Under the pieces are notes generated by a model. The model had not been told where the DNA came from. It was given only the letters and a program-made list of their open reading frames with translations, and did not search any database. Positions 3,271-64,000 of a DNA stretch of 64,000 nt are shown in pieces. Position numbers and translations under genes: made by a program. Source of the DNA: Nisaea sediminum (GTDB lineage Bacteria; Pseudomonadota; Alphaproteobacteria; Thalassobaculales; Thalassobaculaceae); the NCBI RefSeq assembly GCF_014904705.1, contig NZ_JACZCQ010000001.1, positions 496,001 to 560,000 on the forward strand, written 5' to 3'. The first letter of the stretch is position 1. Each line of letters begins with the position of its first letter.

Positions 3271-4149
3271 TCACTTGAAATAGGCATCGACGCCGGGCTC
3301 CGTCTTCCAGCTTTCCTGGCGTTCCAGCACCGGCAACGGCCCGGGCTCGCGGTCGAGCCGGGGCAGGGAGTTCAGCAGCCCGCGGGTATAGGGGTGTTTC
3401 GCCTGGTCCAGTTCGTTCGCCTTACATGTCTCCACGATCTGCCCTGCGTACATGATGATCACGCGGTCGCAGAAGGAGGCGACGAGATTGAGGTCGTGGG
3501 AGACGAACATCAGGCCCATGCCGCGCTGGGTCACCAGATCGTCGATGATCGCCAGCACCTGCATCTGCACGGTGACGTCGAGCGCCGAGGTCGGCTCGTC
3601 CGCAATCATCAGGTCGGGATCGGGGATCAGCATCATCGCGATCATGATGCGTTGGCCCATCCCGCCCGACACCTCGTTCGGATAAAGCCCGAGCACCCGC
3701 TTGGGATCGCGGATCTTCACCGCGGCCAGCATCTCCAGCGTCCGTTCTATGGCCTCGCGTTTCGAGGCGCCGGTATGGACGCGGTAGGCCTCCGCGATTT
3801 GTTCGCCGATGGTCATTACCGGGTTCAAGGAATATTTCGGGTCCTGCATAACCATCGAGATCCGGTCTCCGCGGATCTGCCGCATCTCCTTCTCGGAGAG
3901 TTTCATCAGGTCCTTTCCGTCGAACTCCATCCGTTTCGCCGTCACCACCCCGGGCGGGCGGATGAGGCGCAGCACGGAACGGCCGGTCATGGTCTTGCCG
4001 GAGCCGGATTCGCCGACGATGCCGACCTTCTCGCGTCCGATGGAGAAGCTGATGTCGCGCACCGCGTCGACGATGCCTGTGCGGGTGTGGAAGCGGACGG
4101 AGAGGTCCTCGACCGTCAGAAGCGCCCCGTTGTCGCTGTTACCGCTCAT
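3271..4149 (-). CDS. Peptide-type ABC importer ATPase, DppD/OppD-like, 292 aa
   Basis: The first ATP-binding subunit of the importer. It has Walker A GESGSGKTM, signature VSGGMGQR, Walker B LMIADEPTSALD and the switch histidine in FVSHD. A C-terminal HPYTRGLLNSLP segment is typical of the OppD/DppD peptide-transport C-terminal domain. The ATG (4149) overlaps the stop of the upstream permease gene as ATGA, and this overlap decides the start. The reading frame stays open further upstream, but that part is antisense-like shadow coding inside the permease gene. Confidence 0.93.
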   Translation of the reverse strand: MSGNSDNGALLTVEDLSVRFHTRTGIVDAVRDISFSIGREKVGIVGESGSGKTMTGRSVLRLIRPPGVVTAKRMEFDGKDLMKLSEKEMRQIRGDRISMVMQDPKYSLNPVMTIGEQIAEAYRVHTGASKREAIERTLEMLAAVKIRDPKRVLGLYPNEVSGGMGQRIMIAMMLIPDPDLMIADEPTSALDVTVQMQVLAIIDDLVTQRGMGLMFVSHDLNLVASFCDRVIIMYAGQIVETCKANELDQAKHPYTRGLLNSLPRLDREPGPLPVLERQESWKTEPGVDAYFK

Positions 4150-5075
4150 TGGCCGCTCCTCGGATCGAGGATGTCGCGCAGCCCGTCGCCGAGCAGGTTG
4201 AAACCGAGGCTGACGACGAAGATGGCGAGGCCCGGCATGGTGGCGACCCACCATTGATCGAGCAGGAACTTGCGGCCGGCGGAGATCATTGCGCCCCATT
4301 CCGGAATCGGCGGCTGCGCGCCGAGGCCGAGGAAACCGAGACCGGCTGCCGTGAGGATGATGCCGGCCATGTCCAGTGTGACGCGGACGATTACCGAGGA
4401 CAGGCAGAGCGGTACCACATGCCCCGAGATGATGCGTGCCGGGGAGGCGCCCTGCAGGCGGATCGCGCTGATGAAGTCCTGATTGCGGATCGTAAGGGTC
4501 TCGGCGCGGGCCAGGCGGGCATATGGCGGCCAGGAGGTGATGGCGATGGCGAGCACGGCGTTCTCGATCCCGGGGCCGAGTGCGGCGACGAAGGCGAGCG
4601 CGAGCACGAGGCGTGGGAAGGCGAGGAAGATGTCCGTCAGGCGCATCAGCACGGTATCGACCCATCCGCCGGCATACCCCGCCAGCGTGCCTATCACGAG
4701 GCCGAGCACGGGGGCCGTCGCCGCAACGAGCGCGACGATATAGAGCGTTATGCTGGCGCCGTGGATGATCCGGCTCAGAATGTCCCGGCCGAGTTCGTCC
4801 GTTCCGAATAAATGTCCGGGCGTGCCAGGCGGAAGCAGGCGGTTGTGGAGGTTCTGGGCCAGCGGGTCGTGCGGCGCGATCCAGGGCGCAATCGCGGAGA
4901 CGACAATCAGCGTGACGAGGATTGCGAGCCCGATCATCGCGAGCGGATTGCGCGAGAGCGTCAGCCAGCCGAGATAGAACTGGACCATTCGGGCCTGCCA
5001 GCGCGATTCCGGTGTGTCCGTCGTCAGCCAGGCCTTCAGGCTGGGGGCGCTGGTGCGCGTTGTTTTTGCGATCAT
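4146..5075 (-). CDS. Peptide-type ABC importer permease, DppC/OppC-like, 309 aa
   Basis: An inner-membrane permease subunit. It has an N-terminal OppC_N-type segment with a membrane helix around residues 45-66, the FGTDELGRDILSR motif typical of DppC/OppC, and about five more membrane helices. The EAA-type coupling loop is seen as RLQGASPARIISGHVVP near the middle of the C-terminal half. The start codon is 14 nt from the DppB-like stop. Subunits of this type form the heterodimeric pore with DppB-like partners; the substrate is not readable from the permease. Confidence 0.93.
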   Translation of the reverse strand: MIAKTTRTSAPSLKAWLTTDTPESRWQARMVQFYLGWLTLSRNPLAMIGLAILVTLIVVSAIAPWIAPHDPLAQNLHNRLLPPGTPGHLFGTDELGRDILSRIIHGASITLYIVALVAATAPVLGLVIGTLAGYAGGWVDTVLMRLTDIFLAFPRLVLALAFVAALGPGIENAVLAIAITSWPPYARLARAETLTIRNQDFISAIRLQGASPARIISGHVVPLCLSSVIVRVTLDMAGIILTAAGLGFLGLGAQPPIPEWGAMISAGRKFLLDQWWVATMPGLAIFVVSLGFNLLGDGLRDILDPRSGQ

Positions 5076-5089
5076 GTCTCTGGTCCTGC

Positions 5090-6151
5090 CTAACGGGCGC
5101 GCGGATCGACGAGCCGGTAAAGCAGGTCGGATAGCAGATTGAGGCCGACGAAGACGGCGCCGACCACGACGGTCCCGCCGAGAACGGCGGCCATGTCGGC
5201 CGAAAGCAGTGCGTTGGTGATATAGAAGCCGAGACCCGGCCAGGCGAAAACGGTTTCCGTGAGCACCGAGCCCTCGAGAAGCTGGGCGTAAGAGAGCGCG
5301 ATCACCGTGATCAGCGGCACCAGCACGTTGCCAAGCGCGTGGCGCCAGATCACCTGCGTTTCCGAGATACCTTTGACACGCGCGGTGGTGATGTACTCCT
5401 GGCTCAGTTGCTCCAGCATGAAGCTGCGGGTCATGCGGCTGATATAGGCTATCGAGTAATATCCGAGGACGGCGGCCGGCAGCACGATGTGCGAGACCGC
5501 ATTGGCGAAGATCTCCAGATCTCCGGCGATCAGACTGTCGATCAGGATCGCGCCGGTGACCTGCGGGATCATACCGTCATAGAAGATGTCGAGGCGTCCG
5601 GGGCCGCCGACCCAGCCGAGCACGCCGTAGAAGACCAGCAGCCCGATCAGGCCGAGCCAGAAGACCGGCATGGAATAGCCGAAGAGGCCGAGCACGCGGA
5701 CGACCTGGTCCGGCCAGCGGCCCTGATTGACAGCGGCGAGCACCCCCATCGGAATGCCGAGCACGACCCCGAAGAGCGTCGCGATGGTGGCAAGTTCCAG
5801 TGTCGCCGGGAAGACGCGGGCGATGTCCTCGGCAACCGGGCGCGCGGTCAGCAGCGAGGTGCCCAGATCGCCCTTCAGGACGTCGCCGAGATAATAGGCG
5901 AACTGGACATAAAGCGGCTTGTCGAGCCCCATCGCGAGACGCGCCGCCTGATAGATCTCTTCGCTCGCCTTGTCACCGACTACGGAAAGCACCGGGTCGA
6001 TCGGCATGACGCGGCCGATGATGAAGGTAACGAAGAGCAGGCCGACGAAGGTGACGGCGACGGTCAGAACGGTGTGAATCACCGCCCGTAAAAAACGAGG
6101 GGAGAGGGGCGACGCCCCCCTCCCGACGCTATTGGATGTATTGAGTGCCAT
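5090..6151 (-). CDS. Peptide-type ABC importer permease, DppB/OppB-like, 353 aa
   Basis: An inner-membrane permease subunit with an N-terminal helix at about residues 24-48, then a periplasmic segment containing GLDKPLYVQF and GDLGTS motifs characteristic of DppB/OppB, and five further helices. The coupling loop is ARVKGISETQVIWRHALGN. The C-terminus ends in LVDPRAR, as usual. The length is slightly above typical (about 310-340). It lies 21 nt downstream of the binding-protein gene and 14 nt before the second permease, consistent with one mRNA. Confidence 0.93.
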   Translation of the reverse strand: MALNTSNSVGRGASPLSPRFLRAVIHTVLTVAVTFVGLLFVTFIIGRVMPIDPVLSVVGDKASEEIYQAARLAMGLDKPLYVQFAYYLGDVLKGDLGTSLLTARPVAEDIARVFPATLELATIATLFGVVLGIPMGVLAAVNQGRWPDQVVRVLGLFGYSMPVFWLGLIGLLVFYGVLGWVGGPGRLDIFYDGMIPQVTGAILIDSLIAGDLEIFANAVSHIVLPAAVLGYYSIAYISRMTRSFMLEQLSQEYITTARVKGISETQVIWRHALGNVLVPLITVIALSYAQLLEGSVLTETVFAWPGLGFYITNALLSADMAAVLGGTVVVGAVFVGLNLLSDLLYRLVDPRAR

Positions 6152-6172
6152 ACGGCAGCAGCGCTCCGGCTG

Positions 6173-7780
6173 TTATTTCTTGACCGTCCAGTAATAGACG
6201 GAACTCACGGCGCCGCCGGTATAGAGGCCAGTGACGTTCTTGCGCAAGCCGGTCTGCTCGATTTTCTGCAGCATCACGACGAACGGGCTCGCCATCTGAT
6301 GATCCTTCTGGATCTTGCGATACATCTCGGCGCGGGTGTCGCGATCGCTTTCCTGCACCGCCGCTTCGGTCTCCTTGGACATTTCCGGAATATCCCAGGC
6401 GTTCCGCCAGGCGAGCTTGCCGGTGTTCTTCGCCTCGAACGCGTTGTCCGGGTTGTGCGCGAAGGTGTCGGCATTGGTGTGCGGATCCGGATAGTCCGGG
6501 CCCCAGGCGCCGAGATAGATCTCGTGCTTTCGGGCGCGATAGACGCCGAGCGTCTGCTTGCCGGTCGCGACTTCAAGCGTCGCCTTGATGCCGGCCTGCG
6601 CGAAGGTGTTCTGCAGAGACTGGCCGATTTCCAGACGTTCCTGGGCATTCCGTACGTAAATCTTCACGTCGAAACCGTCGGCTTCGCCAGCTTCCGCCAG
6701 CAGGGCCTTCGCCTTCGCGACGTCGAGCTTGTACGGCTTGTCCTTCAGTTCGCCGAGATAGGTCAGCGGAAGGAAGGCCTGATGCACGGTGTACTGGCCG
6801 CGCAGGAAGGTATTGGCCATGCCTTCGTAATCGACCAGGTACCTCATCGCTTCCTGGACCTTCGGCTTGGCGAGCACCGGCACTTCCTGATTCAGCGAGA
6901 AGTACATGATCCGGCCGCGCAGATCCTCGTCAATGCGCAGATCGCCGTTGCCGGAGATGCCGGCGACATCGTCCGGGGAGAGGTTGCGGGCCACGTCCAC
7001 GTCGCCTTTTTCCAGCAGCAGGCGCTGGGTGGCGGACTCGCTGATATGGCGTACGAAGACACGCTTCATCGCCGGCGCGCCGCGCCAGTAGTTCTCGTTC
7101 GCCTCGAGCACGTAGTTCTCGTTCGGCTTCCAGCCACGCAGGGAATAGGCGCCGGAGCCTGCCGAATTGGTCTTCAGCCACTCGTAGCCCATGTCGCCAT
7201 CCTTCTCGTGCTCCATCGCGAGCTTCATGTCGACGATGTTGCCGATGGTGGCGGTCAGGCAGTTGAGGACGAAGGAGGTGGCGTATTTCTTGTCCGTCTC
7301 GATCGTCAGCGTCATGTCGTCGACGGCCTTGATCTTCTCCTTCGCGTTCTCGGCGGTGAAGCCGAACTGGGTCAGGATGAAGGACGGGGTTTTGTTCAGG
7401 ATCACTGCACGCTGCAGCGAGAAGGCTGCGTCATGGGCGGTCACCGGATTGCCGGAATGGAATTTGACGCCCGGGCGCATCTTGAAGGAGTAGGTCTTCC
7501 CGTCCTCGCTGATGGTCCAGCTTTCCGCCAGACCTGGGACGTAGCCGCCGGAGAGATTGGAGGGCTCGAAGGCGACGAGAGTGTCGTAAACGTTCTGGGC
7601 GAGGTCGCCGCCGGAAAATTCAAAAATTTCCGCCGGATCGAGCGAGACGATGTCGTCGATCCTTGTGGCGATCACCAGCGTGTCCGCCGGGGTCGCCGCG
7701 TAGGACTGCCCGCTTGATAAGGGGAGCGCGACGGATACGGCAAGCGCCGCGACCGCGAAGCTCTTTGCCAATGCGTTCAT
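6173..7780 (-). CDS. Periplasmic solute-binding protein of a peptide-type ABC importer (SBP_bac_5), 535 aa
   Basis: The substrate receptor of the importer. A classic Sec signal peptide (about 27 residues, ending SYA) precedes a mature protein of family 5 (DppA/OppA/NikA type) with the usual LAESWTISEDGKTYSFKMR and MRPGVKFHSG features. The ATG at 7780 follows GAGG at a 6-nt spacing; an in-frame GTG at 7792 would overlap that ribosome-binding site. It is the first gene of the five-gene operon. Family 5 receptors bind peptides, glutathione, nickel chelates, opines or other solutes, so dipeptide specificity is only the default guess. Confidence 0.92.
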   Translation of the reverse strand: MNALAKSFAVAALAVSVALPLSSGQSYAATPADTLVIATRIDDIVSLDPAEIFEFSGGDLAQNVYDTLVAFEPSNLSGGYVPGLAESWTISEDGKTYSFKMRPGVKFHSGNPVTAHDAAFSLQRAVILNKTPSFILTQFGFTAENAKEKIKAVDDMTLTIETDKKYATSFVLNCLTATIGNIVDMKLAMEHEKDGDMGYEWLKTNSAGSGAYSLRGWKPNENYVLEANENYWRGAPAMKRVFVRHISESATQRLLLEKGDVDVARNLSPDDVAGISGNGDLRIDEDLRGRIMYFSLNQEVPVLAKPKVQEAMRYLVDYEGMANTFLRGQYTVHQAFLPLTYLGELKDKPYKLDVAKAKALLAEAGEADGFDVKIYVRNAQERLEIGQSLQNTFAQAGIKATLEVATGKQTLGVYRARKHEIYLGAWGPDYPDPHTNADTFAHNPDNAFEAKNTGKLAWRNAWDIPEMSKETEAAVQESDRDTRAEMYRKIQKDHQMASPFVVMLQKIEQTGLRKNVTGLYTGGAVSSVYYWTVKK

Positions 7781-7823
7781 GTGAAGCCTCACAATTTATT
7801 TTCAAAGCTTGAGTGCTTTTCCA

Positions 7824-7840
7824 CGATCCGGAACGGATCG
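7824..7840. promoter_or_regulatory. Inverted repeat in the leader of the ABC importer operon
   Basis: A perfect 7-bp repeat CGATCCG-GAA-CGGATCG lies 44 nt upstream of the binding-protein ATG, within the 188-nt gap to the thioesterase gene. It could be an operator, an mRNA hairpin, or the 3' end of the thioesterase transcript. It has no T-run, so it is not a canonical terminator. No convincing promoter could be fixed in this gap. Confidence 0.35.
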
Positions 7841-7968
7841 GGTTAACGAAGCCTAATCCGGGCCTCGGGCAATCCACAACACTTGTTGGCGATGGTTTGT
7901 AAAATTATTGCTTTTGAGAGACTTTTGGGGATCCCGAGAAAACGATCCGAGAGCAGTCTCATGCGCGA

Positions 7969-8463
7969 TCAACCCTGTTCCGGGTGATCGAGATCGACGA
8001 TCGCCGTCCGAAGCTCCGGGGAGATCGGTGCCTTCTTCCCCGTCGAGTTGACGATCATGACGAAAAGCTGGGTCGACCAGTTGCAGCACCCTTGCTCGTC
8101 CCAGGTCGCATATTCCATGACCATGCTGGTATTGCGCATGGAGACCGCGCGCCCCGTGACGCAGATCGGCGTGTGGTAGGAGAGGCCCCGGATATACTCG
8201 ATCTCGAGATGTTTCATGACCGGTCCGGGTACGTTCATCGCATGCCGGGGATGGCCGAGGACTTCGAAGTAGATGTTCCTGAGGCTCTCGTACCAGGCGA
8301 GATAGGCGGCGTGGTTCACATGGGCGAAGCCGTCGCAATCCCGCCATTCCACCAGCTTCGGCATCGCGAAGCTCCATTCCTCCGGAATATGGAAGTGCGC
8401 GCGGAGTTCGTCCGTGACCGCGTAGTCGGAGAGGGAGCCGTGTCCGCCGAGAGAGTTGGTCAT
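7969..8463 (-). CDS. Hotdog-fold acyl-CoA thioesterase (4HBT/YbgC-like), 164 aa
   Basis: A probable acyl-CoA thioesterase. The segment VEWRDCDGFAHVNHAAYLA (starting near residue 38) carries the D-x-D-x3-H-V-N pattern of the 4-hydroxybenzoyl-CoA thioesterase family, with the second Asp the likely catalytic residue. One hotdog domain fills the chain, and there is no signal peptide. The gene follows the LysE-type exporter gene with only 4 nt between them, so the two are co-transcribed. The substrate is unknown; short or branched acyl-CoA and aromatic CoA are both possible. Confidence 0.83.
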   Translation of the reverse strand: MTNSLGGHGSLSDYAVTDELRAHFHIPEEWSFAMPKLVEWRDCDGFAHVNHAAYLAWYESLRNIYFEVLGHPRHAMNVPGPVMKHLEIEYIRGLSYHTPICVTGRAVSMRNTSMVMEYATWDEQGCCNWSTQLFVMIVNSTGKKAPISPELRTAIVDLDHPEQG

Positions 8464-8467
8464 CGGC

Positions 8468-9082
8468 TCAGCGCTCCAGGAAGGCGACGCGGATGCCGAG
8501 GAAGATCAGCAGCCCGCCGAAGATCCGGTTCACCAGCTTCTGTCCCCTTTCCAGCACCCGGCGAACCATGCCGGTATCGAGTGTGAAGACGAAGAAGATC
8601 CAGAACAGCGCGCTGACCGCCATCATGATCGCGACGAGCAGCAGCGTGGTTCCGGTCGCGGTCTCCGGCGTGATCACCATGGTGAAGACGCCGAGATAGA
8701 ACAGCGTGCCTTTCGGGTTCAGGATGTTGTTCAGGAACCCCTGCAGGAACCAGCGCTGGTTCGCCGCGCGCGGCTCCAGATCCCTGACCGAGAGCTTGGT
8801 ATCGCTCGCGAAGAAACTCATAACGCCGAGGTAGATCAGGTAGGCGGCGCCCGCATATTTCAGGATGTTGAAGGCGAGGATGCTCTGCGAGATCAGCAGG
8901 CCGATGCCGATCGCACAATAGGTGATGTGCACCAGATTGCCGGTGAGCACGCCGAGAGAGGATTTGAGGCCGGCCGCGCGGCCGCCGATGATCGTGTTGC
9001 GCATCACGATCACCATGTCCGGTCCCGGGCTGATCATGATGAGCGTGGTGATACCGAGAATGACGATGATCTGGTCGAGCAT
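8468..9082 (-). CDS. LysE/RhtB family amino-acid exporter, 204 aa
   Basis: An inner-membrane exporter with about six hydrophobic helices. The N-terminal SPGPDMVIVMRN motif and the GLKSSLGVLTGN segment are hallmarks of LysE/RhtB proteins, which export amino acids or homoserine lactones. The ATG at 9082 follows GGGGA and gives the normal family length; the open frame extends 21 codons further but lacks a better start. It is co-transcribed with the thioesterase gene downstream. Confidence 0.9.
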   Translation of the reverse strand: MLDQIIVILGITTLIMISPGPDMVIVMRNTIIGGRAAGLKSSLGVLTGNLVHITYCAIGIGLLISQSILAFNILKYAGAAYLIYLGVMSFFASDTKLSVRDLEPRAANQRWFLQGFLNNILNPKGTLFYLGVFTMVITPETATGTTLLLVAIMMAVSALFWIFFVFTLDTGMVRRVLERGQKLVNRIFGGLLIFLGIRVAFLER

Positions 9083-48762: not shown

Positions 48763-49003
48763 GCGCTTTTTCCTTGTCGTTCGTCTGCCTTTTTCAGGGG
48801 CCGCCTTTGTAAAATATGGATCGACACGGAGCAAGGAGCGCCGCATTGCGAATTAAGCACCATTGAAGTTTCGCATTTGCCGCCCGTGCGGCCTTTGGCT
48901 TTGACCCAGCGTATCTTGAATTGGGACCTGGATGTTCTCGGGAACCGTATCCCGAGTCCGTCATGGGCCGGAATCCTGTCTCTCCTATGTTTCGCAGCAG
49001 TCG

Positions 49004-50248
49004 CTAGAACGGCAATGTCGAGCCGATTGTGCTCATGAACGCCGGCACGGCGGTCGGCGCGAGCAAGGCCGTCACCTGGGCGAACTGAGCACTCGCGGAG
49101 ATCGTCAGTTTGTTTTCTTTCAGGACCTCTTCCTGCTTCGAGGTACTGTCGTCCGGATACATGGTGCGCACCAGTTTCCATGCCCGTTTTCGCAGGATGA
49201 GGACATTCGGAACCAAGACGACGATCAAGACCATCGAGAAAACGACCCCATATCCCAGCGACAATTCGCCGATACGACCTGTCATCGCTTCGGTGACGTT
49301 GGAGCTCGCTGCGCTGATCGGATTGACGCCGCCGATACCTCCGACGAACTTTTTTTGCTCGGATAGCAAGTAAGTGGGCCAGCTGAGCAAAGCTTTATAG
49401 TGATAGGTTGCGACGCCCAGTAGGATCGATGCCAGATAGACTGCGACCCGAACGCGCTCGAAAGAACGAACAAGGTACTGGATATAGATTGTTCGCTCGG
49501 GACTCAGCTCGCTAGCCGCGTTCTCGTCGGTCAAGTCGATCTTGCCCGCGTCGAATGCTGATTTCCTCCCTGGATGATCCAAGAGCGTTGCAGCCGCTGC
49601 CATGATCAAGGTCAAGAGCGCGATCCAGACGAGCAATCCGGCCCATTCCAGCTTCGTTCCAATGTCGGGCAAGGACTGTTCGTAGGGCTTCAGGACCTGT
49701 TCTTTCAACGTAGGAAGATTTAGGTGCAAGATCGTCGATATATTCGATGTAATGTTGAAAGCGATGAGCCCACTGACTGCCGTTAGTATGGCCGCGAAGC
49801 ACAGATGCGCTGTTGCCTCGCGGAGGAACCGACGTGCGCCATTGCCCGTCATGTCTTCGACGGCGACCACGATCACCCAAATCGCGCCGAACATTGCGAC
49901 CACGCTGACGACGAGCAACAATACATACGCGGTGAACCATTTCGCCTTTCCTGCCGATTGTCGCGCGGCACCGATGGTTCGCCATTCGGCCAATTCCAAT
50001 TTTTTGCTGGCGGGCATCTCCTCCTTTTTGGCTCTGGTGATTCTGACGAGGTCGGCGTGTGTTGCCGCGAGCGAACCCTCCAAGGTGATCGGAGCGCCTT
50101 CGTTTCCACAGGGCTCGCTGCCGGGGCAGGAAAAAGGAGCAGGCCCGAAAGCGCTGGCGATCGAGACGGCCATCACTATGATCAGGGCCGCGAACAGGGG
50201 TGGCAACTGACAGCGCCAATTCCCGTCGGGTTTCGTCGATTGGGACAT
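49004..50248 (-). CDS. Unknown polytopic membrane protein, 414 aa
   Basis: I do not recognise this family. There are about six predicted helices (roughly residues 17-37, 107-131, 148-168, 203-226, 270-290 and 337-357). A periplasmic loop follows the first helix, with an acidic cytoplasmic stretch FDAGKIDLTDENAASELSPE between helices 4 and 5. It is last of a four-gene unit after two lipoprotein genes and a small soluble protein gene, in a region of lower GC. No Shine-Dalgarno site is visible at the ATG (29 nt after the upstream stop). Function unknown; a membrane partner for the lipoproteins is inferred. Confidence 0.75.
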   Translation of the reverse strand: MSQSTKPDGNWRCQLPPLFAALIIVMAVSIASAFGPAPFSCPGSEPCGNEGAPITLEGSLAATHADLVRITRAKKEEMPASKKLELAEWRTIGAARQSAGKAKWFTAYVLLLVVSVVAMFGAIWVIVVAVEDMTGNGARRFLREATAHLCFAAILTAVSGLIAFNITSNISTILHLNLPTLKEQVLKPYEQSLPDIGTKLEWAGLLVWIALLTLIMAAAATLLDHPGRKSAFDAGKIDLTDENAASELSPERTIYIQYLVRSFERVRVAVYLASILLGVATYHYKALLSWPTYLLSEQKKFVGGIGGVNPISAASSNVTEAMTGRIGELSLGYGVVFSMVLIVVLVPNVLILRKRAWKLVRTMYPDDSTSKQEEVLKENKLTISASAQFAQVTALLAPTAVPAFMSTIGSTLPF

Positions 50249-50277
50249 CGTGTGAATTCGACCGCCGGTCGCGCGGG

Positions 50278-50640
50278 TCAGGCGGCGGCTAGCGGGCCAT
50301 TCCCGACGGTCATTTCGGCGATCTCGATCGATGTCGACAGAATAACTTGAGCGGTCGCGTTCTGTGCGTTCAGTTGGACCAGATTCCGGACCGCTTCCCG
50401 GATATCCTTGACATGCTGGTCGGTCGGGGGCGTGAAGGCCTCGCCTTCGGAGATTTGGCGCTGACGTATATCGATTTGTTCCATCCGTAGAAGAATATCC
50501 TGGCGCTCGGTTTGCGTAGAGGCTTTTTCCAATGCGATCTGGAGGCTTTGCAGCTTGCGGCCGAGGGCGTGGAACGCTTTGTACATTTCGGGAAGGCTGG
50601 CGATCTCGTCGTCGGTCAGGAAACCCTGGTCATCGGGCAT
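50278..50640 (-). CDS. Unknown small soluble helical protein, 120 aa
   Basis: Not recognised. It is acidic at the N-terminus (MPDDQGFLTDDEIASL) and mostly helical, with a heptad-like stretch from about residue 20 to 65 and no signal peptide or membrane helix. GGAG sits 7 nt upstream of the ATG. It lies 36 nt after the small lipoprotein gene and 29 nt before the membrane protein gene, so it is part of the same unit. It could be a cytoplasmic adaptor. Confidence 0.7.
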   Translation of the reverse strand: MPDDQGFLTDDEIASLPEMYKAFHALGRKLQSLQIALEKASTQTERQDILLRMEQIDIRQRQISEGEAFTPPTDQHVKDIREAVRNLVQLNAQNATAQVILSTSIEIAEMTVGNGPLAAA

Positions 50641-50676
50641 TTGTCTTCTCCGTCGTCAGGGCGATAAGGGGTAACG

Positions 50677-51267
50677 TTATTTCTCACTTGTACTCTTGGG
50701 TGCCACCGGTGCCGGCGAGACCTCGGACTTGGCCTCCTGAAGCGCTTTGACATCGTCCGCGACATCCTTGGCGAATTTGCCGAAAAACTTCAGAGTCTCC
50801 CGGCCGCTGCGGCCTTCGCGCACCTTCAGATATTGTTTGAGAATCTCATCGTAGGGAGCGGCATCGACCTTCAACTTCGCGAACGTCTTGCCAGGCTCGC
50901 CTAAACCGGTGGCCGCCGGCTTCTGTCCGAACGGATCGTCGCGGAGCCTATCGTCACCTTGTTTATGAATGTCCATTGTCTTCAGGCCCGTATCGCGATC
51001 GCCTCCGGTGAGCGCCCAATTCCGCCGCAACCGAACCTCGTTCTCACGCAGTGTTTGCGCGGTTCCCTCGAGACTTCTGAGCGTGTCTTCGGAGTCATCG
51101 CGCATCGCGTTCCGCGATGTGACGAAGGTTCCAAGCTCCGACTTAATGGACGTCACTTCTTTGATCCCCGTATCCAGTGCAGCGTTCACCTCAACAGGTG
51201 TCTCGCAAGCCGAGAGGCCGAGAAGCAAGGCGACGGACGTGATCATCTTTTTTGCAGAATATCGCAT
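50677..51267 (-). CDS. Unknown lipoprotein, 196 aa
   Basis: A lipoprotein by signal: positively charged N-terminus, hydrophobic core, and lipobox LSAC with Cys21; residue +2 is Glu, so it is not a standard Asp inner-membrane retention signal. The mature part is helical and charged, with an unstructured C-terminus (PAPVAPKSTSEK). The family is unknown. Its ATG overlaps the stop of the 599-aa lipoprotein gene by one base (TGATG), which indicates coupling. Confidence 0.75.
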   Translation of the reverse strand: MRYSAKKMITSVALLLGLSACETPVEVNAALDTGIKEVTSIKSELGTFVTSRNAMRDDSEDTLRSLEGTAQTLRENEVRLRRNWALTGGDRDTGLKTMDIHKQGDDRLRDDPFGQKPAATGLGEPGKTFAKLKVDAAPYDEILKQYLKVREGRSGRETLKFFGKFAKDVADDVKALQEAKSEVSPAPVAPKSTSEK

Positions 51268-53066
51268 CAGTCATTCACTCCATAGGCGGTCACGATCAGG
51301 CCGACAGCCTGAACGAGGCGGGCGATATCGGCGGTTTTGATGCCCGATTCTCCGTAAACCTTGAGCTGCGAGACAATCGGCCTGAGCAAGTCGACCCGCG
51401 CGGCAAAGGCGGCGCCGTCAAGTTCGAGGTTGCGTTCGCGAACGATCTGCAGTTCGCGATAGCGCGACAATTGATCCGGCAGACGCCCGACGTCCCAGGA
51501 CTCTTTCAGTTCGGTCAAGCCATAGACTGCATTGCGTGCCGACGTGGAATTCGGGCTCTTGGTAACCAAGGCATCGTAATTGCCGGCTTCTTCGGGGATC
51601 TTGGCCAATAATTCCTTCGCCCGTTTGAGGTGGACGACTTCACGCACCAAGGCGTCGCGGCGCAAATTGTAGAGTGCAAGAAGCTTCTTCAGCGCGGTTT
51701 CGCTGAACTTCGCCGTATCCGCCTTGAATTGCTGATAAGCGTAGGAAACCAGCGCGATATCCGCATTCGACGCCGGGTCACTCTCGGCGGCGATCTCCTG
51801 GATTTTCATAACCGCGCGGAAAACGGTGAGCAGAATCTTGGCGTTCTTGTCGTCCGGAGTTTTCGACGGATCCGCGATCGCCTCGAAAAGCTCCAACGCC
51901 GTTCCGCTCCGGAACTCGCTAATTGCGGTCTTGAACGCGTCGTCCTTGATGGCGGCGAACTCCAATACGCCATCGAGTCCTTTCCTCGCGTCGTTCAGAG
52001 TGCCGGTATCGATGCCGGCTTTCTCGGCCAATTTTTCAAGCGTGGGAAGTGCCAGATCAGGCTTTTCACACTTTGGCGCCTTTGATTCTTCTTTTTCTTT
52101 GTCGGCTTCTTCTTTGTCGGTTTCGGCTTTCTTCTCTTCGGGCAACGGCTTGCCCTCAAGGAAATCCATGAAAGCGGCAATCAGCGATTGTGCATTTGCA
52201 ATCTCCGTCTCGAGACCGGAGCTTGTCTCCGCCGCCTTCAGCAAGCACTCGTAATGCGCCTTTCTCTTCTTAAGCTCGTCGGCAGCGGCCTTGGCGATCC
52301 CGCTCTGCACTTTCAGGAGAGTCTTTGTTGATTCGATCCTGGCGTTAGCTTCAGAGATATCGCCACTCTTAACCGTATCCAGATTGCTGACTTCGGCCAG
52401 CGCCTCCCATTCCTCTTTCGCCTTTTTCAGGGAAGGGCAGTACGATCGGAGAAGGATGATAGCGCCATTCGCTTCCGCTTTTTTCGACTCTGGAACCTTG
52501 CTCATGTCCGGATTGTCGAGAGACTTGCAAATGTCCTTTCCCTGTCCGCCGGCTCTCAAAAAATTAGCCGCCATGAGATTGACTTGGCTCTGAGCCGTGA
52601 ACAGCCTGCGTTCGGCGTTGACTATTTGCCGACGGAAATCGGCGGCGGAAAGCACCTTGAGGTTGTCGAACGTGGCGGCCGATCCGACCAACTGCTCAGA
52701 TCGGCTCGCAATGTAAGTTCCCATTAAGTCCCAGGATAACAGGGATTGTTTGCCGGGTTCCTCGAAACCGGCGATCCATTCCATGAGGACGGCGTCCCGG
52801 GCCGCCAGAACTCTCTCGACGACGACTTTGTCCGTCTTGGATTTCAGCTCGGCGAGGAATGCCCTCTCCGTGTCCAGGATGGTTTTCGTGTCTATCTTGC
52901 CGAACGCTTCAGCAGCGGCGGTTGTTTGCTTTTCCCGCGCCGGATCATGCAAGTGCGGACTGGCGCAACCGGCCAGAAGACTCGTGACGAGGACCAGGCG
53001 AAGGCTTGAGAGAACAATGCGGCATCGGCTGCTGCGTGCACAGACTGCCTGTGTGTGAGTTCCCAT
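51267..53066 (-). CDS. Unknown large helical lipoprotein, 599 aa
   Basis: A lipoprotein with lipobox LLAGC (Cys34); residue +2 is Ala, so outer-membrane sorting is expected. The ATG 53066 follows GGGGGGAA; an ATG-like alternative lies at 53087. The mature chain is nearly all alpha-helical with many short helices, and an extreme Lys/Glu linker (EKKAETDKEEADKEKEES) lies near residues 305-325. It has only a few cysteines (one in APKCEKPD), and no enzyme motif was found. It is the first gene of the four-gene unit, and the AT-rich upstream region probably carries the promoter. Confidence 0.75.
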   Translation of the reverse strand: MGTHTQAVCARSSRCRIVLSSLRLVLVTSLLAGCASPHLHDPAREKQTTAAAEAFGKIDTKTILDTERAFLAELKSKTDKVVVERVLAARDAVLMEWIAGFEEPGKQSLLSWDLMGTYIASRSEQLVGSAATFDNLKVLSAADFRRQIVNAERRLFTAQSQVNLMAANFLRAGGQGKDICKSLDNPDMSKVPESKKAEANGAIILLRSYCPSLKKAKEEWEALAEVSNLDTVKSGDISEANARIESTKTLLKVQSGIAKAAADELKKRKAHYECLLKAAETSSGLETEIANAQSLIAAFMDFLEGKPLPEEKKAETDKEEADKEKEESKAPKCEKPDLALPTLEKLAEKAGIDTGTLNDARKGLDGVLEFAAIKDDAFKTAISEFRSGTALELFEAIADPSKTPDDKNAKILLTVFRAVMKIQEIAAESDPASNADIALVSYAYQQFKADTAKFSETALKKLLALYNLRRDALVREVVHLKRAKELLAKIPEEAGNYDALVTKSPNSTSARNAVYGLTELKESWDVGRLPDQLSRYRELQIVRERNLELDGAAFAARVDLLRPIVSQLKVYGESGIKTADIARLVQAVGLIVTAYGVND

Positions 53067-53292
53067 AGTAGTTCCCCCCAGCCGCATGCCCGGTTTGATC
53101 CAACTCGACCGACCATTCCAGATTGTTATCTTGTGGTGATCGTAGGGAGGAGATCAACAAAAAATAGAAATAATTTAAATGTTATACATTCTTTGGGGGT
53201 GGGAGATCGCAGCCGGCGTCCTAGATTTCCTCGCTCTCAAGAGGACGGGTGCTCCCGCGGGATAGGGCGGATCGGAGTGCCGAGAAAGTGGA
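53067..53292. other. AT-rich intergenic region upstream of the lipoprotein unit
   Basis: This 226-nt gap lies between the CopD-like gene and the large lipoprotein gene, both on the minus strand. An AT-rich tract at about 53,156-53,195 is the strongest AT island of its neighbourhood and is a likely promoter or border site. I could not fix a promoter with confidence, and no tRNA, repeat or integrase remnant was seen. Confidence 0.4.
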
Positions 53293-53763
53293 TCATCCCC
53301 AATAACGGCCGGTCGCGCCGACGAGGACGGTGATCCAGCCGAGCCAGAGATTGGTGAAGACGATCATGCGGATGCGGTTCAGCCGGCCTCCGGCCGCCGG
53401 GAAGTCCCCGGCGTCGACCGCCTTGCGGAACTTGCTCCATTCGGCGAACCAGAGATGGCCGAAGAGGCCCATCATCAGGAAGCCGGTCAGGTTCATGATG
53501 TGGACATGGATGCCGACCCCCGAGAAGCCGCCATATTCCATGAACACCATCCAGTAGCCGCTGCCGAGCAGCAGCACGATCTCGACGATGACGATGCGGA
53601 AGAAGCGGGCGAAGACCGCGCGCCAGAGCCTCAGCCGGTCCGGCGCCTGTTCCAGCGTGCCCATCGACGGGCGGAGGACGGAATAGGCGAAGAACATGCC
53701 GCCGACCCAGATCACCGCCGAGACGATGTGGATGGCAAGCGCGATAATCATCGTATAGGGCAT
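53293..53763 (-). CDS. CopD-like membrane protein, 156 aa
   Basis: A four-helix inner-membrane protein of the CopD/DUF2269-type superfamily. Conserved histidines occur near H12 (ALAIHIVSAVIWVGGMFF), around 86-88 (GIHVHIMN), and H103 (FGHLWF); such residues may bind copper or heme. The IWVGGMFF motif is typical. Copper transport or resistance is possible, but no other cop gene lies nearby. Confidence 0.83.
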   Translation of the reverse strand: MPYTMIIALAIHIVSAVIWVGGMFFAYSVLRPSMGTLEQAPDRLRLWRAVFARFFRIVIVEIVLLLGSGYWMVFMEYGGFSGVGIHVHIMNLTGFLMMGLFGHLWFAEWSKFRKAVDAGDFPAAGGRLNRIRMIVFTNLWLGWITVLVGATGRYWG

Positions 53764-53796: not shown

Positions 53797-54261
53797 TCAG
53801 CTCTTCGGCGTGTCGCGCTGGTAGAGGATGAAGGGCGTCTTGGTCGCGATCCGGTCATAGGCGGAACGGCCGCGATAGTTGAACTCCTGGGTCAGCCAGC
53901 GGACCATCGGCCAGCCGTTCTTCTGCGCCATCTCGTCCATCGCCGCGAACAGGGCCTCGAACACGCCCTTGCCGCGCGCCTCGGGATCGACGAAGAGATC
54001 GTCGAGGAAGCCGCATTCGGCGCCGGAGAGCGGGCGCGGCATGGCGCGGATATGGGCGAGGCCGATCGGTTTTCCGTCCGAATCCTCCGCGACCAGGCAG
54101 TTCAATACATGCGCCGGATCGTGCAGCCAGCCCCAGACCCGGTCCGCGATCTCATCGGTCATCGGCACCTTGTAGAAGGCGGCATAGCCGTCGTAGAGGC
54201 GGCGCCAGTCCTGCCTGTGCCGCTCCGCCACCGGAACCACCCGGACGTCGCTCTTAGCCAT
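53797..54261 (-). CDS. GNAT acetyltransferase, copy 1, 154 aa
   Basis: A GNAT enzyme. The pyrophosphate-binding loop is PEARGKGVFEALF; AIRAMPRPLSGAECGFLDDLFV is nearly identical in wording to the paralogue at 54,385, and the two share NYRGRSAYDR near the end. Residue identity is high over the full length, so this is a tandem duplication. The substrate is unknown. Confidence 0.88.
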   Translation of the reverse strand: MAKSDVRVVPVAERHRQDWRRLYDGYAAFYKVPMTDEIADRVWGWLHDPAHVLNCLVAEDSDGKPIGLAHIRAMPRPLSGAECGFLDDLFVDPEARGKGVFEALFAAMDEMAQKNGWPMVRWLTQEFNYRGRSAYDRIATKTPFILYQRDTPKS

Positions 54262-54384: not shown

Positions 54385-54837
54385 TCAGGCCATGTCACGC
54401 TTGTAAAGGACGAAGGGCATCTTGTCGGCGACCCGGTCGTAGGCCGAGCGTCCGCGGTAATTGGCTTCCCGGGTCTGCCACCGCACGCTTTGCCAGCCTT
54501 TTTCCTCGGCAATCTTGTCCATGGCCGCGAAGAGCGCCTCGAAGACGCCTTGACCGCGCGCTTCCGGGGCGACGAAGATATCGTCAAGAAAGCCGCATTC
54601 CGAGCCCGAGAGGGGGCGCGGCATCGCGCGCACATGGGCAAGGCCGATCGCCCGGCCGCTTCCATCCACAGCGATCAGGCCGAGCAAAACATGCGCCGGG
54701 TCCATCAGCCAGCCCCAGACCGCTTCAGCGGTATCGTCGGTCACCGGCAGCTTGCAGGCGTCGCCGTAGCCGTCAAAAAGCCGGCGCCAGTCGGCCTTGT
54801 GCCGCTCCTCGACGTGAACAACCTGCACCTTTGCCAT
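54385..54837 (-). CDS. GNAT acetyltransferase, copy 2, 150 aa
   Basis: The tandem paralogue of the gene at 53,797, with the acetyl-CoA loop PEARGQGVFEALF. The two copies differ most near the N-terminal substrate side (AFYKVP versus DACKLP), which suggests diverged substrates. The upstream region is also duplicated: TTAGCTCTCC lies just beyond both start codons. No antitoxin-like gene is next to either copy. Confidence 0.88.
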   Translation of the reverse strand: MAKVQVVHVEERHKADWRRLFDGYGDACKLPVTDDTAEAVWGWLMDPAHVLLGLIAVDGSGRAIGLAHVRAMPRPLSGSECGFLDDIFVAPEARGQGVFEALFAAMDKIAEEKGWQSVRWQTREANYRGRSAYDRVADKMPFVLYKRDMA

Positions 54838-60218: not shown

Positions 60219-61282
60219 CTGACGACGTACGGTTTGATGTCCGGGGCGGCTTCGGCTGGATCACCCTGGACCGGCAGCGTGCCCTGAATGCCCTCACGCT
60301 CGACGTGATCCGGGGCATGCAGAAGCATCTCGACGGCTGGGCCGAGAATCCCAAGGTCGGCGCCTTCCTGGTCGAAGGCGCTGGCGAGAAGGCGTTCTGC
60401 GCCGGCGGCGACGTGGTGGCTGTGCGCCGATCGCGGATCGAGGACGGCGAGGGCAATGCGCCGACGCAGTTCATGCTCGACTTCTTCGGTGAGGAGTACC
60501 GCCTCAACCGCACCATCTCCGAGGTCCCGAAACCCTATGTCGCGCTGATGGACGGGGTGACGATGGGCGGCGGTGTCGGCATCTCGGTTCATGGCGATTT
60601 CCGTGTCGTCACCGACCGCACGCTCTTCGCAATGCCGGAGACCGGGATCGGACTCTTCCCCGATGTCGGCGGCGGCTGGTTCCTGCCGCGCTGCCCGGGC
60701 GAGACCGGCACCTATCTGGCGCTCACCGGCGTTCCCGTAAAGGCTGCGGACTGCCTCTATGTCGGCGCGGCAACTCACTACGTGCCGAGCGAAAAGATCG
60801 ATGCGCTGCGCGACGCCCTGGGGGATCTGCCGTCCGGAGAGAATCTCTCGGACGCGATTTCAGCGGTGCTGGGGAATTTCTCCGAACCCGCCGGCGATGC
60901 GCCGCTGGCGGTACATCGCGAGCTGATCGATTCCTGCTTCCGGCATGACAGCGTCGAAGAGATCCTGGAGGCGCTCAGGGCCGAGGGCAGCGAATTCGCG
61001 TTGAAGACGGCGGAATTGCTCGAATTGCGTTCACCGACCAGCCTGAAGATGACCCTGGAGCTGATGCGCCGCGGGGCGCGCTGCGCCAGCCTTGCCGAGG
61101 ACCTCGAAACCGAGTTCGCTCTGGTGCAGAGTTTCCTGACCGGTGAGGATTTCTTCGAAGGCGTTCGGGCCCTTCTGGTCGACAAGGACCGTTCGCCGAA
61201 ATGGTCGCCGGCGAGCTTGGCTGAAGTGACCGACGAAACGGTCGAGGCCTATTTCTCGCGAGATGGCAAAGCGGGACTCTGA
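60215..61282 (+). CDS. 3-Hydroxyisobutyryl-CoA hydrolase (crotonase family), 355 aa
   Basis: A crotonase-fold hydrolase. The signature regions are FCAGGDVVAV, MDGVTMGGGVGIS and MPETGIGLFPDVGGG, with the catalytic Glu in the PETGIG segment. The length (355 aa) matches HIBCH rather than ordinary enoyl-CoA hydratase. The start ATG overlaps the dehydrogenase stop. It would remove CoA before the MmsB step. Confidence 0.94.
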   Translation: MTDDVRFDVRGGFGWITLDRQRALNALTLDVIRGMQKHLDGWAENPKVGAFLVEGAGEKAFCAGGDVVAVRRSRIEDGEGNAPTQFMLDFFGEEYRLNRTISEVPKPYVALMDGVTMGGGVGISVHGDFRVVTDRTLFAMPETGIGLFPDVGGGWFLPRCPGETGTYLALTGVPVKAADCLYVGAATHYVPSEKIDALRDALGDLPSGENLSDAISAVLGNFSEPAGDAPLAVHRELIDSCFRHDSVEEILEALRAEGSEFALKTAELLELRSPTSLKMTLELMRRGARCASLAEDLETEFALVQSFLTGEDFFEGVRALLVDKDRSPKWSPASLAEVTDETVEAYFSRDGKAGL

Positions 61283-61335
61283 AGCCCGCAATCCAGAAAA
61301 GCGAACGAACACGTTAGGGACAGGGAGCAGGAAAC

Positions 61336-62217
61336 ATGACGACAATCGCCTTCATCGGCCTCGGTAATATGGGGCTTCCCATGGCCAAGAACCTGATCGG
61401 CGCGGGCCATCAGGTCCGCGGCTTCGATCTTTCCGCCGAAAGTCTGGAAAAGCTTGAAGCGGCGGGTGGCACGCCCGCATCCAGCGCGGCCGATGCGGTT
61501 TCAGGCGCGGAAGTCGTCGTCACCATGCTCCCGGCGGGCAAGCATGTCCGGGCGGTCTATGACGAGAGCGTCTTTCCGAGCGCCGCGGCCGGGACGCTTT
61601 TCATCGATTGCTCGACCATCGACGTCGATACAGCCCGCGCGGTGGCGGCGGATGCGGCCGCCAAGGGGTTCGCCATGCTCGACGCCCCGGTCTCCGGCGG
61701 CACCGGCGGGGCGGAGGCGGGAACTCTGACTTTCATGGTCGGAGGTGACGATTCGGCCTTCGCACGGGCCCGCCCGCTACTCGATGTGATGGGGGCGACT
61801 GTGGTGCATGCGGGTTCCAGCGGCAGCGGTCAGGCGGCGAAGATCTGCAACAACATGGTGCTTGGGATTTCGATGATCGCGGTCTCCGAAGCCTTCGCGC
61901 TCGCCGACAAGTTGGGGCTCGACCGCCAGAAGCTCTTCGACATCAGTTCGAAGTCTTCGGGCCAGTGCTGGGCGATGACCAGTTACTGCCCGGTGCCCGG
62001 CCCGGTTCCGACTTCTCCTGCCAACCGTGACTACCTTCCGGGCTTCACCGCGGCGATGATGCTGAAGGATCTCGACCTCGCGCAACAGGCAGCCGATTCG
62101 GCCAAAGCCACAACCCCGATGGGGACAAAGGCCGCCGAATTCTATGCCGCCTTTGTTGACGAAGGCCACGGCGCCCTTGATTTCTCTGCGGTCTTCAAGA
62201 AACTGCGCGGCAATTAG
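61336..62217 (+). CDS. mmsB: 3-Hydroxyisobutyrate dehydrogenase, 293 aa
   Basis: Oxidises 3-hydroxyisobutyrate to methylmalonate semialdehyde with NAD+. The N-terminal FIGLGNMGLPMAKNL binds NAD; DAPVSGGTGGAEAGTL and GQAAKICNNM (catalytic Lys) follow. The length is normal. It lies 53 nt after the HIBCH gene, completing the middle of the valine pathway; mmsA and the enoyl-CoA hydratase step are not in this window. Confidence 0.96.
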   Translation: MTTIAFIGLGNMGLPMAKNLIGAGHQVRGFDLSAESLEKLEAAGGTPASSAADAVSGAEVVVTMLPAGKHVRAVYDESVFPSAAAGTLFIDCSTIDVDTARAVAADAAAKGFAMLDAPVSGGTGGAEAGTLTFMVGGDDSAFARARPLLDVMGATVVHAGSSGSGQAAKICNNMVLGISMIAVSEAFALADKLGLDRQKLFDISSKSSGQCWAMTSYCPVPGPVPTSPANRDYLPGFTAAMMLKDLDLAQQAADSAKATTPMGTKAAEFYAAFVDEGHGALDFSAVFKKLRGN

Positions 62218-62221
62218 GTTG

Positions 62222-62244
62222 CGTATTTGACGTATTTAACGTTA
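62222..62244. promoter_or_regulatory. Tandem 9-mer repeat and palindrome upstream of ldtR
   Basis: CGTATTTGA is followed immediately by CGTATTTAA, and the TAACGTTA palindrome overlaps the second copy. The site lies 48-70 nt upstream of the ldtR ATG in an AT-rich island. MarR-type proteins often bind short repeats near their own start, so autoregulation is possible; this is an inference. Confidence 0.3.
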
Positions 62245-62291
62245 CAAGAATGGCGCTATTGTTGCGAATTCTAATCTAATTCGGAGTTTGA

Positions 62292-62819
62292 ATGCCTATG
62301 CTTGGCATGACGGCACCGAAACAAACCGCGGCGGACCCGTCTGTGATTAAGAACGAGTATCTCGAAGCGATCAAACTCATCGAACGGCTTCATCGTCAAT
62401 TTCTTGAAGTCGTGAAAATGGAACTCGACCGTAAAGGGATCGAGGACATTAACAACATTCAGGCTTTGATCCTCTTTAATATCGGTAGTGAGGAATTGAC
62501 CGTCGGAGAACTGACGAACCGCGGGTATTACCTCGGCTCGAACGTTTCCTACAATGTTCGCAAGATGGTCGAGAACGGCTATCTGGTGCAGGAACGCTCG
62601 GCGCATGACCGCCGGTCGATCCGCGTGAAGCTCTCCGACAAGGGGCTTGAGCTTTGCGGCTTCGTTTCCGACATGTTCGACCGCCACGCGGCGGCGCTTG
62701 GCGAAGCGGGCGGCAGCCCTGACCGGCTGACCGAGTCGAGCCAGACCTATCGGGAACTCGAGCGCTTTTGGATGGGGCTGCTCAACTTCGGAATTCGCGG
62801 CGGTATTCCGCCGGTTTGA
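62292..62819 (+). CDS. ldtR: MarR-type winged-helix regulator, LdtR-like, 175 aa
   Basis: A winged-helix transcription factor. NNIQALILFNIG and ELTVGELTNRGYYLGSNVSYNVRKMVENGYL form the helix-turn-helix and wing region, and RSAHDRRSIRVKLSDKG is the wing. The sequence is close to the LdtR type of alphaproteobacteria, which controls an L,D-transpeptidase and stress tolerance. GGAG precedes the ATG. It is the last gene before a strong terminator, and co-transcription with mmsB is uncertain. Confidence 0.9.
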   Translation: MPMLGMTAPKQTAADPSVIKNEYLEAIKLIERLHRQFLEVVKMELDRKGIEDINNIQALILFNIGSEELTVGELTNRGYYLGSNVSYNVRKMVENGYLVQERSAHDRRSIRVKLSDKGLELCGFVSDMFDRHAAALGEAGGSPDRLTESSQTYRELERFWMGLLNFGIRGGIPPV

Positions 62820-62859
62820 GCCAATCCGGCCGGTTCCGATCCTGAAGACATGGTGAGTG

Positions 62860-62890
62860 CGCGGCCGGCTTTCCGGCCGCGTTTTCGTTT
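62860..62890 (+). terminator. Intrinsic terminator after ldtR
   Basis: CGCGGCCGG and CCGGCCGCG pair perfectly around a CTTT loop, followed by TTTTCGTTT. It is clearly placed 40 nt after the ldtR stop and about 80 nt before proS. Confidence 0.9.
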
Positions 62891-62970
62891 GGACAGCCGA
62901 TAGTCCATTTCATAGAGTGTCGCGGCGTTCAGCCGGGCCCGGGCCCGGATTTCAGACCACAGAGGACTCC

Positions 62971-64000
62971 ATGCGTCTTTCCGCTTATTTTCTGCCGACC
63001 CTCCGGGAAAACCCGAAAGAGGCGCAGATCGTCTCCCACCGCCTGATGCTGCGGGCCGGCATGATCCAGCAGGCCAGCGCCGGGATCTATTCCTGGCTGC
63101 CGCTCGGTTTCAGGGTGCTTCGGAAGATCGAGCAGATCGTGCGCGAGGAGCAGGATGCGGCCGGCGCGCAGGAAGTCCTGATGCCGACGATCCAGTCCGC
63201 AGATCTCTGGCGGGAAAGCGGCCGCTACGACGACTACGGCAAGGAAATGCTGCGGATCGAGGATCGGCACGGGCGCGACATGCTCTACGGGCCGACCAAC
63301 GAGGAGCTGATCACCGATATTTTCCGGACCCATGTGCGCAGCTACAAGGCGCTGCCGCTGATGCTCTATCACATCCAGTGGAAATTCCGCGACGAGGTCC
63401 GTCCGCGGTTCGGTGTCATGCGCGGCCGTGAATTCCTTATGAAGGACAACTATTCCTTCGATACGGACTATCAGGGAGCGGTCGATGCATATAACCGGAT
63501 GTTCGTTTCCTATCTGAAGACTTATGCGCGCATGGGATTGAGTGCGATCCCGATGAAGGCCGATACCGGCCCGATCGGCGGCGACCTCAGCCACGAATTC
63601 ATCGTGCTGGCCGATACCGGCGAGAGCGGCGTGTTCTACGACAAGGCCTGGGAAGCGCAGGACTTCGCCAATATGGACGTGAACTACGCGGACATGGGCG
63701 AAGTGAACGGCATCGTCGACAAATACACCTCGCTCTATGCCGCGACCGACGAGAAGCACGATGCCGCCTCCTGCGGAGTCGCCGAGGCGGACCTGAAGGA
63801 ACGGCGGGGCATCGAGGTCGGGCAGATCTTCTATTTCGGCACGAAATACTCCGCCCCTCTGAATGCGGTCGTGTCCACGCCGGAGGGCGAGGAGGTTCCG
63901 GTGCATATGGGATCCTACGGCATCGGCGTTTCGCGTCTGGTGGGTGCCATCATCGAGGCGAGCCACGACGACAAGGGCATCATCTGGCCGGAGCAGGTTG
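62971..64000 (+). CDS. proS: Prolyl-tRNA synthetase, 3' end cut by the window, 343 residues visible
   Basis: Class II synthetase for tRNA-Pro. The N-terminus [13 protein letters not shown] and the motif 2 region [15 protein letters not shown], followed by [10 protein letters not shown], are intact; motif 3, [10 protein letters not shown], is near residue 312. Between motif 2 and motif 3 there is only a short insertion (about 100 residues) where E. coli-type ProRS has an editing domain of about 180 residues. This is the alphaproteobacterial short form. AGAGGA precedes the ATG. Confidence 0.95.

Follow-up and report, generated by a model that had tools for sequence, protein, structure and literature searches.

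PqiABC of E. coli, in which an inner-membrane protein and an outer-membrane lipoprotein act jointly (PMC10897342), is a described counterpart, in kind of parts, of a four-gene unit that we analyzed in Nisaea sediminum. We found no description of such an operon in the literature. The unit lies in a 64,000-nucleotide stretch of DNA (positions 496,001 to 560,000 of contig NZ_JACZCQ010000001.1), here called the window, and encodes the predicted lipoproteins LP1 and LP2, a small protein, P0003, and a polytopic membrane protein, P0004 (Table 1). In our preferred reading, to which we assign a probability of roughly 45%, it is a horizontally acquired accessory operon for one envelope-associated module of exchangeable parts. 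The locus is a clean example of recent operon gain, with sites empty in four sister species and products that all lack a named family.

The four genes appear to form one transcription unit. They are co-directional, with distances of −1, 36 and 29 nt for LP1/LP2, LP2/P0003 and P0003/P0004, respectively. A first-pass annotation made from the DNA letters had proposed this arrangement, and we confirmed its coordinates, lengths and distances for the four minus-strand ORFs as well as its assignment of two lipoproteins, a polytopic membrane protein and a small protein without a signal. In all four genes, GC content is highest at the third codon position and lowest at the second, a pattern which supports the ORFs as truly coding. 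The LP1 start at 53066 is preceded by GGGGGGAA; an alternative reading of 606 aa from 53087 is possible but less likely. Purine-rich Shine-Dalgarno-like sequences stand 5′ of the LP1, LP2 and P0003 starts, and that of P0004 is weak. Lipobox-like signals are present in LP1 (LLAGC/A) and LP2 (GLSAC/E). The region upstream of LP1 yielded no sigma-70 consensus site, and no supported promoter or terminator was found at the locus.

Table 1. Features of the four-gene unit and its insertion (window coordinates; LP1 is P0001 among the query proteins).
Feature	Coordinates	Strand	Description
LP1	51267..53066	-	Predicted lipoprotein, 599 aa, helical; Lys/Glu-rich linker; conserved C-terminal region (SWD.GR.P..L..YR..Q motif)
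LP2	50677..51267	-	Predicted small lipoprotein, 196 aa; overlaps LP1 by 1 nt
P0003	50278..50640	-	Small predicted cytosolic helical protein, 120 aa
P0004	49004..50248	-	Predicted six-TM inner-membrane protein, 414 aa; first outer loop with two Cys; basic C-terminal tail (RKRAWKLVR)
LP1 upstream region	53067..53292	-	AT-rich stretch; likely site of operon promoter
Genomic insertion, ~4.5 kb	48776..53292		Carries the four-gene unit only; defined by contiguous flanks in sister species, junction alignment, GC and GC3

Beyond what the first-pass annotation had described, the unit coincides with an insertion that is missing from four sister species. A DNA search of the genus found the site empty in all four (G001–G004), where the flanks are contiguous with 34–88 bp between matches. 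The left flank is a CoA-transferase gene and the right flank a CopD-like membrane protein gene, and junction alignment placed the edges near 48768–48820 and 53293–53295. Apart from the four genes, nothing inside the insertion convinced us as a gene. GC content is 56–58% across the unit vs 64–66% around it, and GC3 is 0.67–0.70 in the four genes vs 0.81–0.90 in five flanking genes. The suspicion of a lower GC content was thus well founded. The single line cited for it (52,081–52,140) does have 24 G+C as counted, but it falls in the LP1 Lys/Glu-rich linker, and the real signal is the whole unit.

Because the sites are empty in four sisters and GC3 is low, acquisition of the insertion by horizontal gain is well supported, most simply as an event in the N. 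sediminum lineage. Searches of 97 other genomes for P0004, and of 35 other genomes of the host's order for LP1, found neither protein. A search for traces of entry at the insertion found no integrase, phage gene, tRNA, flanking repeat or target-site duplication, and no Rfam RNA was found. Beside the insertion, two adjacent minus-strand genes for GNAT-type acetyltransferase-like proteins (53797–54261 and 54385–54837) share 69% protein identity, indicating a tandem duplication. Elsewhere in the window, GC content also drops to about 59–60%, at 61001–64000 and 6001–9000.

None of the four proteins matched Pfam, NCBIfam, PADLOC or PHROGs beyond chance, in agreement with the original reading that no gene belongs to a known family. 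The sole weak PADLOC match, BovA for P0003 (E 0.006), is no better than chance would give for a coiled-coil-like protein. Sequence comparison linked P0004, LP1 and P0003 to no solved structure. AlphaFold models of LP1 and P0004 (mean pLDDT 36 and 49) were too poor for interpretation, and Foldseek searches with them returned nothing below E 0.001, the matches being helical-bundle noise. Two single-protein searches of genome contigs, which reach close relatives only, found nothing. Relatives were likewise lacking in a phage collection searched with P0004, in plasmids searched with LP1, P0003, P0004 and the LP1 and P0004 relatives, and in viral contigs. With no relative in these collections and an insertion of four genes only, a reading of the unit as phage or prophage cargo, or as plasmid maintenance, is not supported. 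The counter-case that the first-pass annotation had named, in which each gene would be traced to a family already known from phages or plasmid maintenance, did not arise.

LP1 has relatives in 2 of 385 class genomes (G296 and G072), which belong to one genus of another order. The match is best across the final 200 residues (28% identity, BLASTP E 7e-12) and stands out in shuffle tests (local z 24 and 17), so that LP1 is, by these comparisons, clearly homologous to both proteins. In each genome the LP1 homologue is directly followed, after 12 nt, by a gene for a second lipoprotein of 288–290 aa, and then by a Tat-signal Amidohydro_2 gene. This operon is itself accessory, present in 2 of 17 genomes of its order. 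The second lipoprotein corresponds to LP2 in position and kind, and the similarity in sequence is not significant. A first reading by eye had taken these proteins as homologues of LP2, for which BLASTP (E 4.5), shuffling (z −0.6 to 2.1) and hhalign (E 0.07) gave no support. LP2 thus has no significant relative in the family databases or in this direct comparison, and P0003 has none in the family databases, plasmids, viral contigs or fetched loci. Weak LP1-profile matches in the phylum search lay over unrelated genes in those inspected (L012, L014) and were discarded.

Tat-signal-like Amidohydro_2 proteins were also seen on an Ensifer plasmid (locus L018, 7830–9560 with 3588–8306) and a Microvirga plasmid (L019, 7851–13830). 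Both adjoin class III cyclase, AAA/STAND and TPR proteins, and the Microvirga cyclase, the one scanned, matches Pycsar cyclase models. This amidohydrolase and cyclase/STAND association, recurrent in two genera, may be a system of its own.

Hydropathy of P0004 indicates probable TM segments at residues 17–35, 108–128, 149–168, 204–224, 266–284 and 329–352; the fifth gives a weak hydropathy signal and owes its assignment partly to the family alignment. The strongly basic tail follows the last TM segment, and both Cys lie in the first long loop. From its sequence, P0004 probably has cytosolic termini and a periplasmic, oxidised first loop; this orientation is only probable because basic residues are fairly common in the first loop too (10 K/R vs 8 D/E). 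In the class sample of 385 genomes we found one clear relative, in G410 (E 6e-25), together with a distant stand-alone relative in G359. The G410 relative is split (L033, 7844–9318, minus strand): a 127-aa ORF carries the first TM segment and Cys loop and shares 4 nt with the 364-aa main ORF, which may reflect a frameshift, a sequencing error or a true split gene. A 98-aa ORF and an outer-membrane-barrel-like gene follow. This small ORF was considered as a P0003 counterpart and shows no similarity to it.

Profiles extended these matches to an unnamed family within one other bacterial family; the genomes with P0004 relatives are scattered across its class. A profile built from that family's members alone finds P0004 (E 6e-8) as well as the G410 and G359 proteins, and aligning the two groups with hhalign returns a probability of 97% (E 1e-10). 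The profile match of P0004 to the six-TM family covers the C-terminal half. The P0004 family as listed comprises proteins of G410, G359, G285, G625, G944, G963, G864 and G924. Two further profile matches are not trusted: that in G925 is an ABC-type permease by appearance, and that in G188 (E 4e-4 to 1e-3) lies beside a pentapeptide-repeat protein and transposase-like genes. Neighbours within the family vary. G285 has none that are obvious, and in G944 and G963 an ABC ATPase gene lies about 45 nt upstream. In G625 the P0004-family gene shares 4 nt with the gene for a GDSL + caspase + M15 peptidase protein, which a papain-like gene adjoins; these form a three-gene operon (L066, 8711–15432, minus strand). 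The caspase matches the PADLOC caspase model (E 8e-7), and the papain-like assignment is by motif only.

The complete four-gene set was seen in one genome only. It did not recur among 385 class genomes (LP1 and P0004 queries) or 398 phylum genomes (LP1 and P0004 profiles), both of them samples. Seven P0004-family genomes yielded no LP1 relative, and the two genomes with LP1 relatives yielded none of P0004; an empty answer here is weaker than a positive one. The first-pass annotation had proposed one new four-gene system and a look for the same gene order in other genomes, where we found relatives always apart. Separate occurrence, which it had named as evidence against itself, held in every other genome with a relative. 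Its proposal stands insofar as the genes appear to form a co-inserted operon here and falls insofar as they are not a fixed set; a fixed four-gene system is not supported by these sequence searches.

The membrane locations, complex formation and any activity of the module are inferred, and its parts would be arranged as follows. LP1 and LP2 are probably anchored in the outer membrane, facing the periplasm. P0004 would be an inner-membrane six-TM protein with N and C termini in the cytosol, and its first periplasmic loop, 70 residues long and probably disulphide-bonded, could make contact with the lipoproteins. The soluble, helical P0003 could bind the cytosolic face of P0004, and the four proteins jointly would link both membranes. 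LP1 and its partner lipoprotein may constitute the core, whose output partner would be P0003/P0004 in this genome and, in the other order, a Tat-exported amidohydrolase.

One module is favoured because the genes are a single co-directional unit, the sole gene-like content of the insertion and alike in their aberrant GC3. The same common strand, tight spacing, and similar GC and GC3 within one insertion holding nothing else argue against independent genes that accumulated through successive gains at one permissive intergenic position. The separate occurrence of the LP1 and P0004 families elsewhere, and a P0003 without relatives, would fit such a collection, which we nonetheless consider improbable. 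Because the two families were never found together elsewhere, the basis for joint function is limited to operon structure and co-insertion, and it is from these, not from co-conservation, that the unity of the unit is drawn.

A role in conflict or defence is unlikely, though somewhat less so than mere collection: the lipoproteins would detect a damaged envelope or adsorbing phage, with P0004 as a membrane-side effector or regulator harming or shutting down the cell. Such a role would suit gain as a compact block and a patchy occurrence, LP1 and close P0004 relatives each being found in well under 1% of the class genomes sampled. It would also suit the gene overlap with the caspase protein, next to the papain-like protein, in G625, and cousins of the LP1-side amidohydrolase that adjoin cyclase/STAND-ATPase genes or lie near a Septu-like ATPase on rhizobial plasmids. 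However, PADLOC matched 0 of the 4 proteins and the unit has no nuclease, protease or NTPase domain. The caspase neighbour occurs with one P0004-family relative only, others being solitary or beside an ABC ATPase, and the plasmid amidohydrolases are cousins of a gene outside this window. A conflict role is possible but weakly supported, and a transport role is backed as little. The latter would be a trans-envelope system for transport or lipid handling, comparable to PqiABC, in which P0004 forms the membrane part and the lipoproteins serve for docking in the periplasm or at the outer membrane. The component types match by kind, the P0004-family gene follows an ABC ATPase gene in G944 and G963, and the G410 relative lies near an outer-membrane-barrel-like gene. 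Pfam and NCBIfam nevertheless detected no domain of the MCE, PqiA, PqiC or transporter kinds, an ATPase is missing from the window unit, and the link to an ABC ATPase comes from a distant branch. We rate transport about as improbable as a chance collection. Still more speculative, and in our estimate a long shot, is an undescribed class in which a conserved lipoprotein pair has interchangeable outputs and the six-TM protein also serves caspase/papain-type operons, for example in envelope-sensing conflict or cell suicide.

Our preferred reading thus remains a gained operon for one envelope-associated module. Two families without a name emerge from the analysis, that of LP1 and that of the six-TM P0004, and the partners of both vary. 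Should LP1, LP2 and P0004 form a complex, they would make a small, testable envelope system; should they not, the locus illustrates how envelope genes with no relation to one another end up moving as a group.

Of the operons compared, that of G296 and G072 resembles the window unit in being accessory and in having a large helical lipoprotein, homologous to LP1, with a smaller lipoprotein gene directly after it. It differs in the length and sequence of this second lipoprotein and in its third gene, the Tat-signal Amidohydro_2, with no P0003 or P0004 relative found. Members of the six-TM family share with P0004 a C-terminal half with Y, P and IL-rich motifs, a similar topology and profile homology in both directions, but they occur without LP1 or LP2 and with varying neighbours. 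Similarly, the G625 caspase operon contains a P0004-family gene, here overlapping an enzyme gene, but lacks lipoproteins, whereas the window unit lacks a protease. PqiABC has an MCE domain, which the window unit does not, and bears no sequence relation to it; the resemblance is in kind of parts only, an inner-membrane protein and a lipoprotein.
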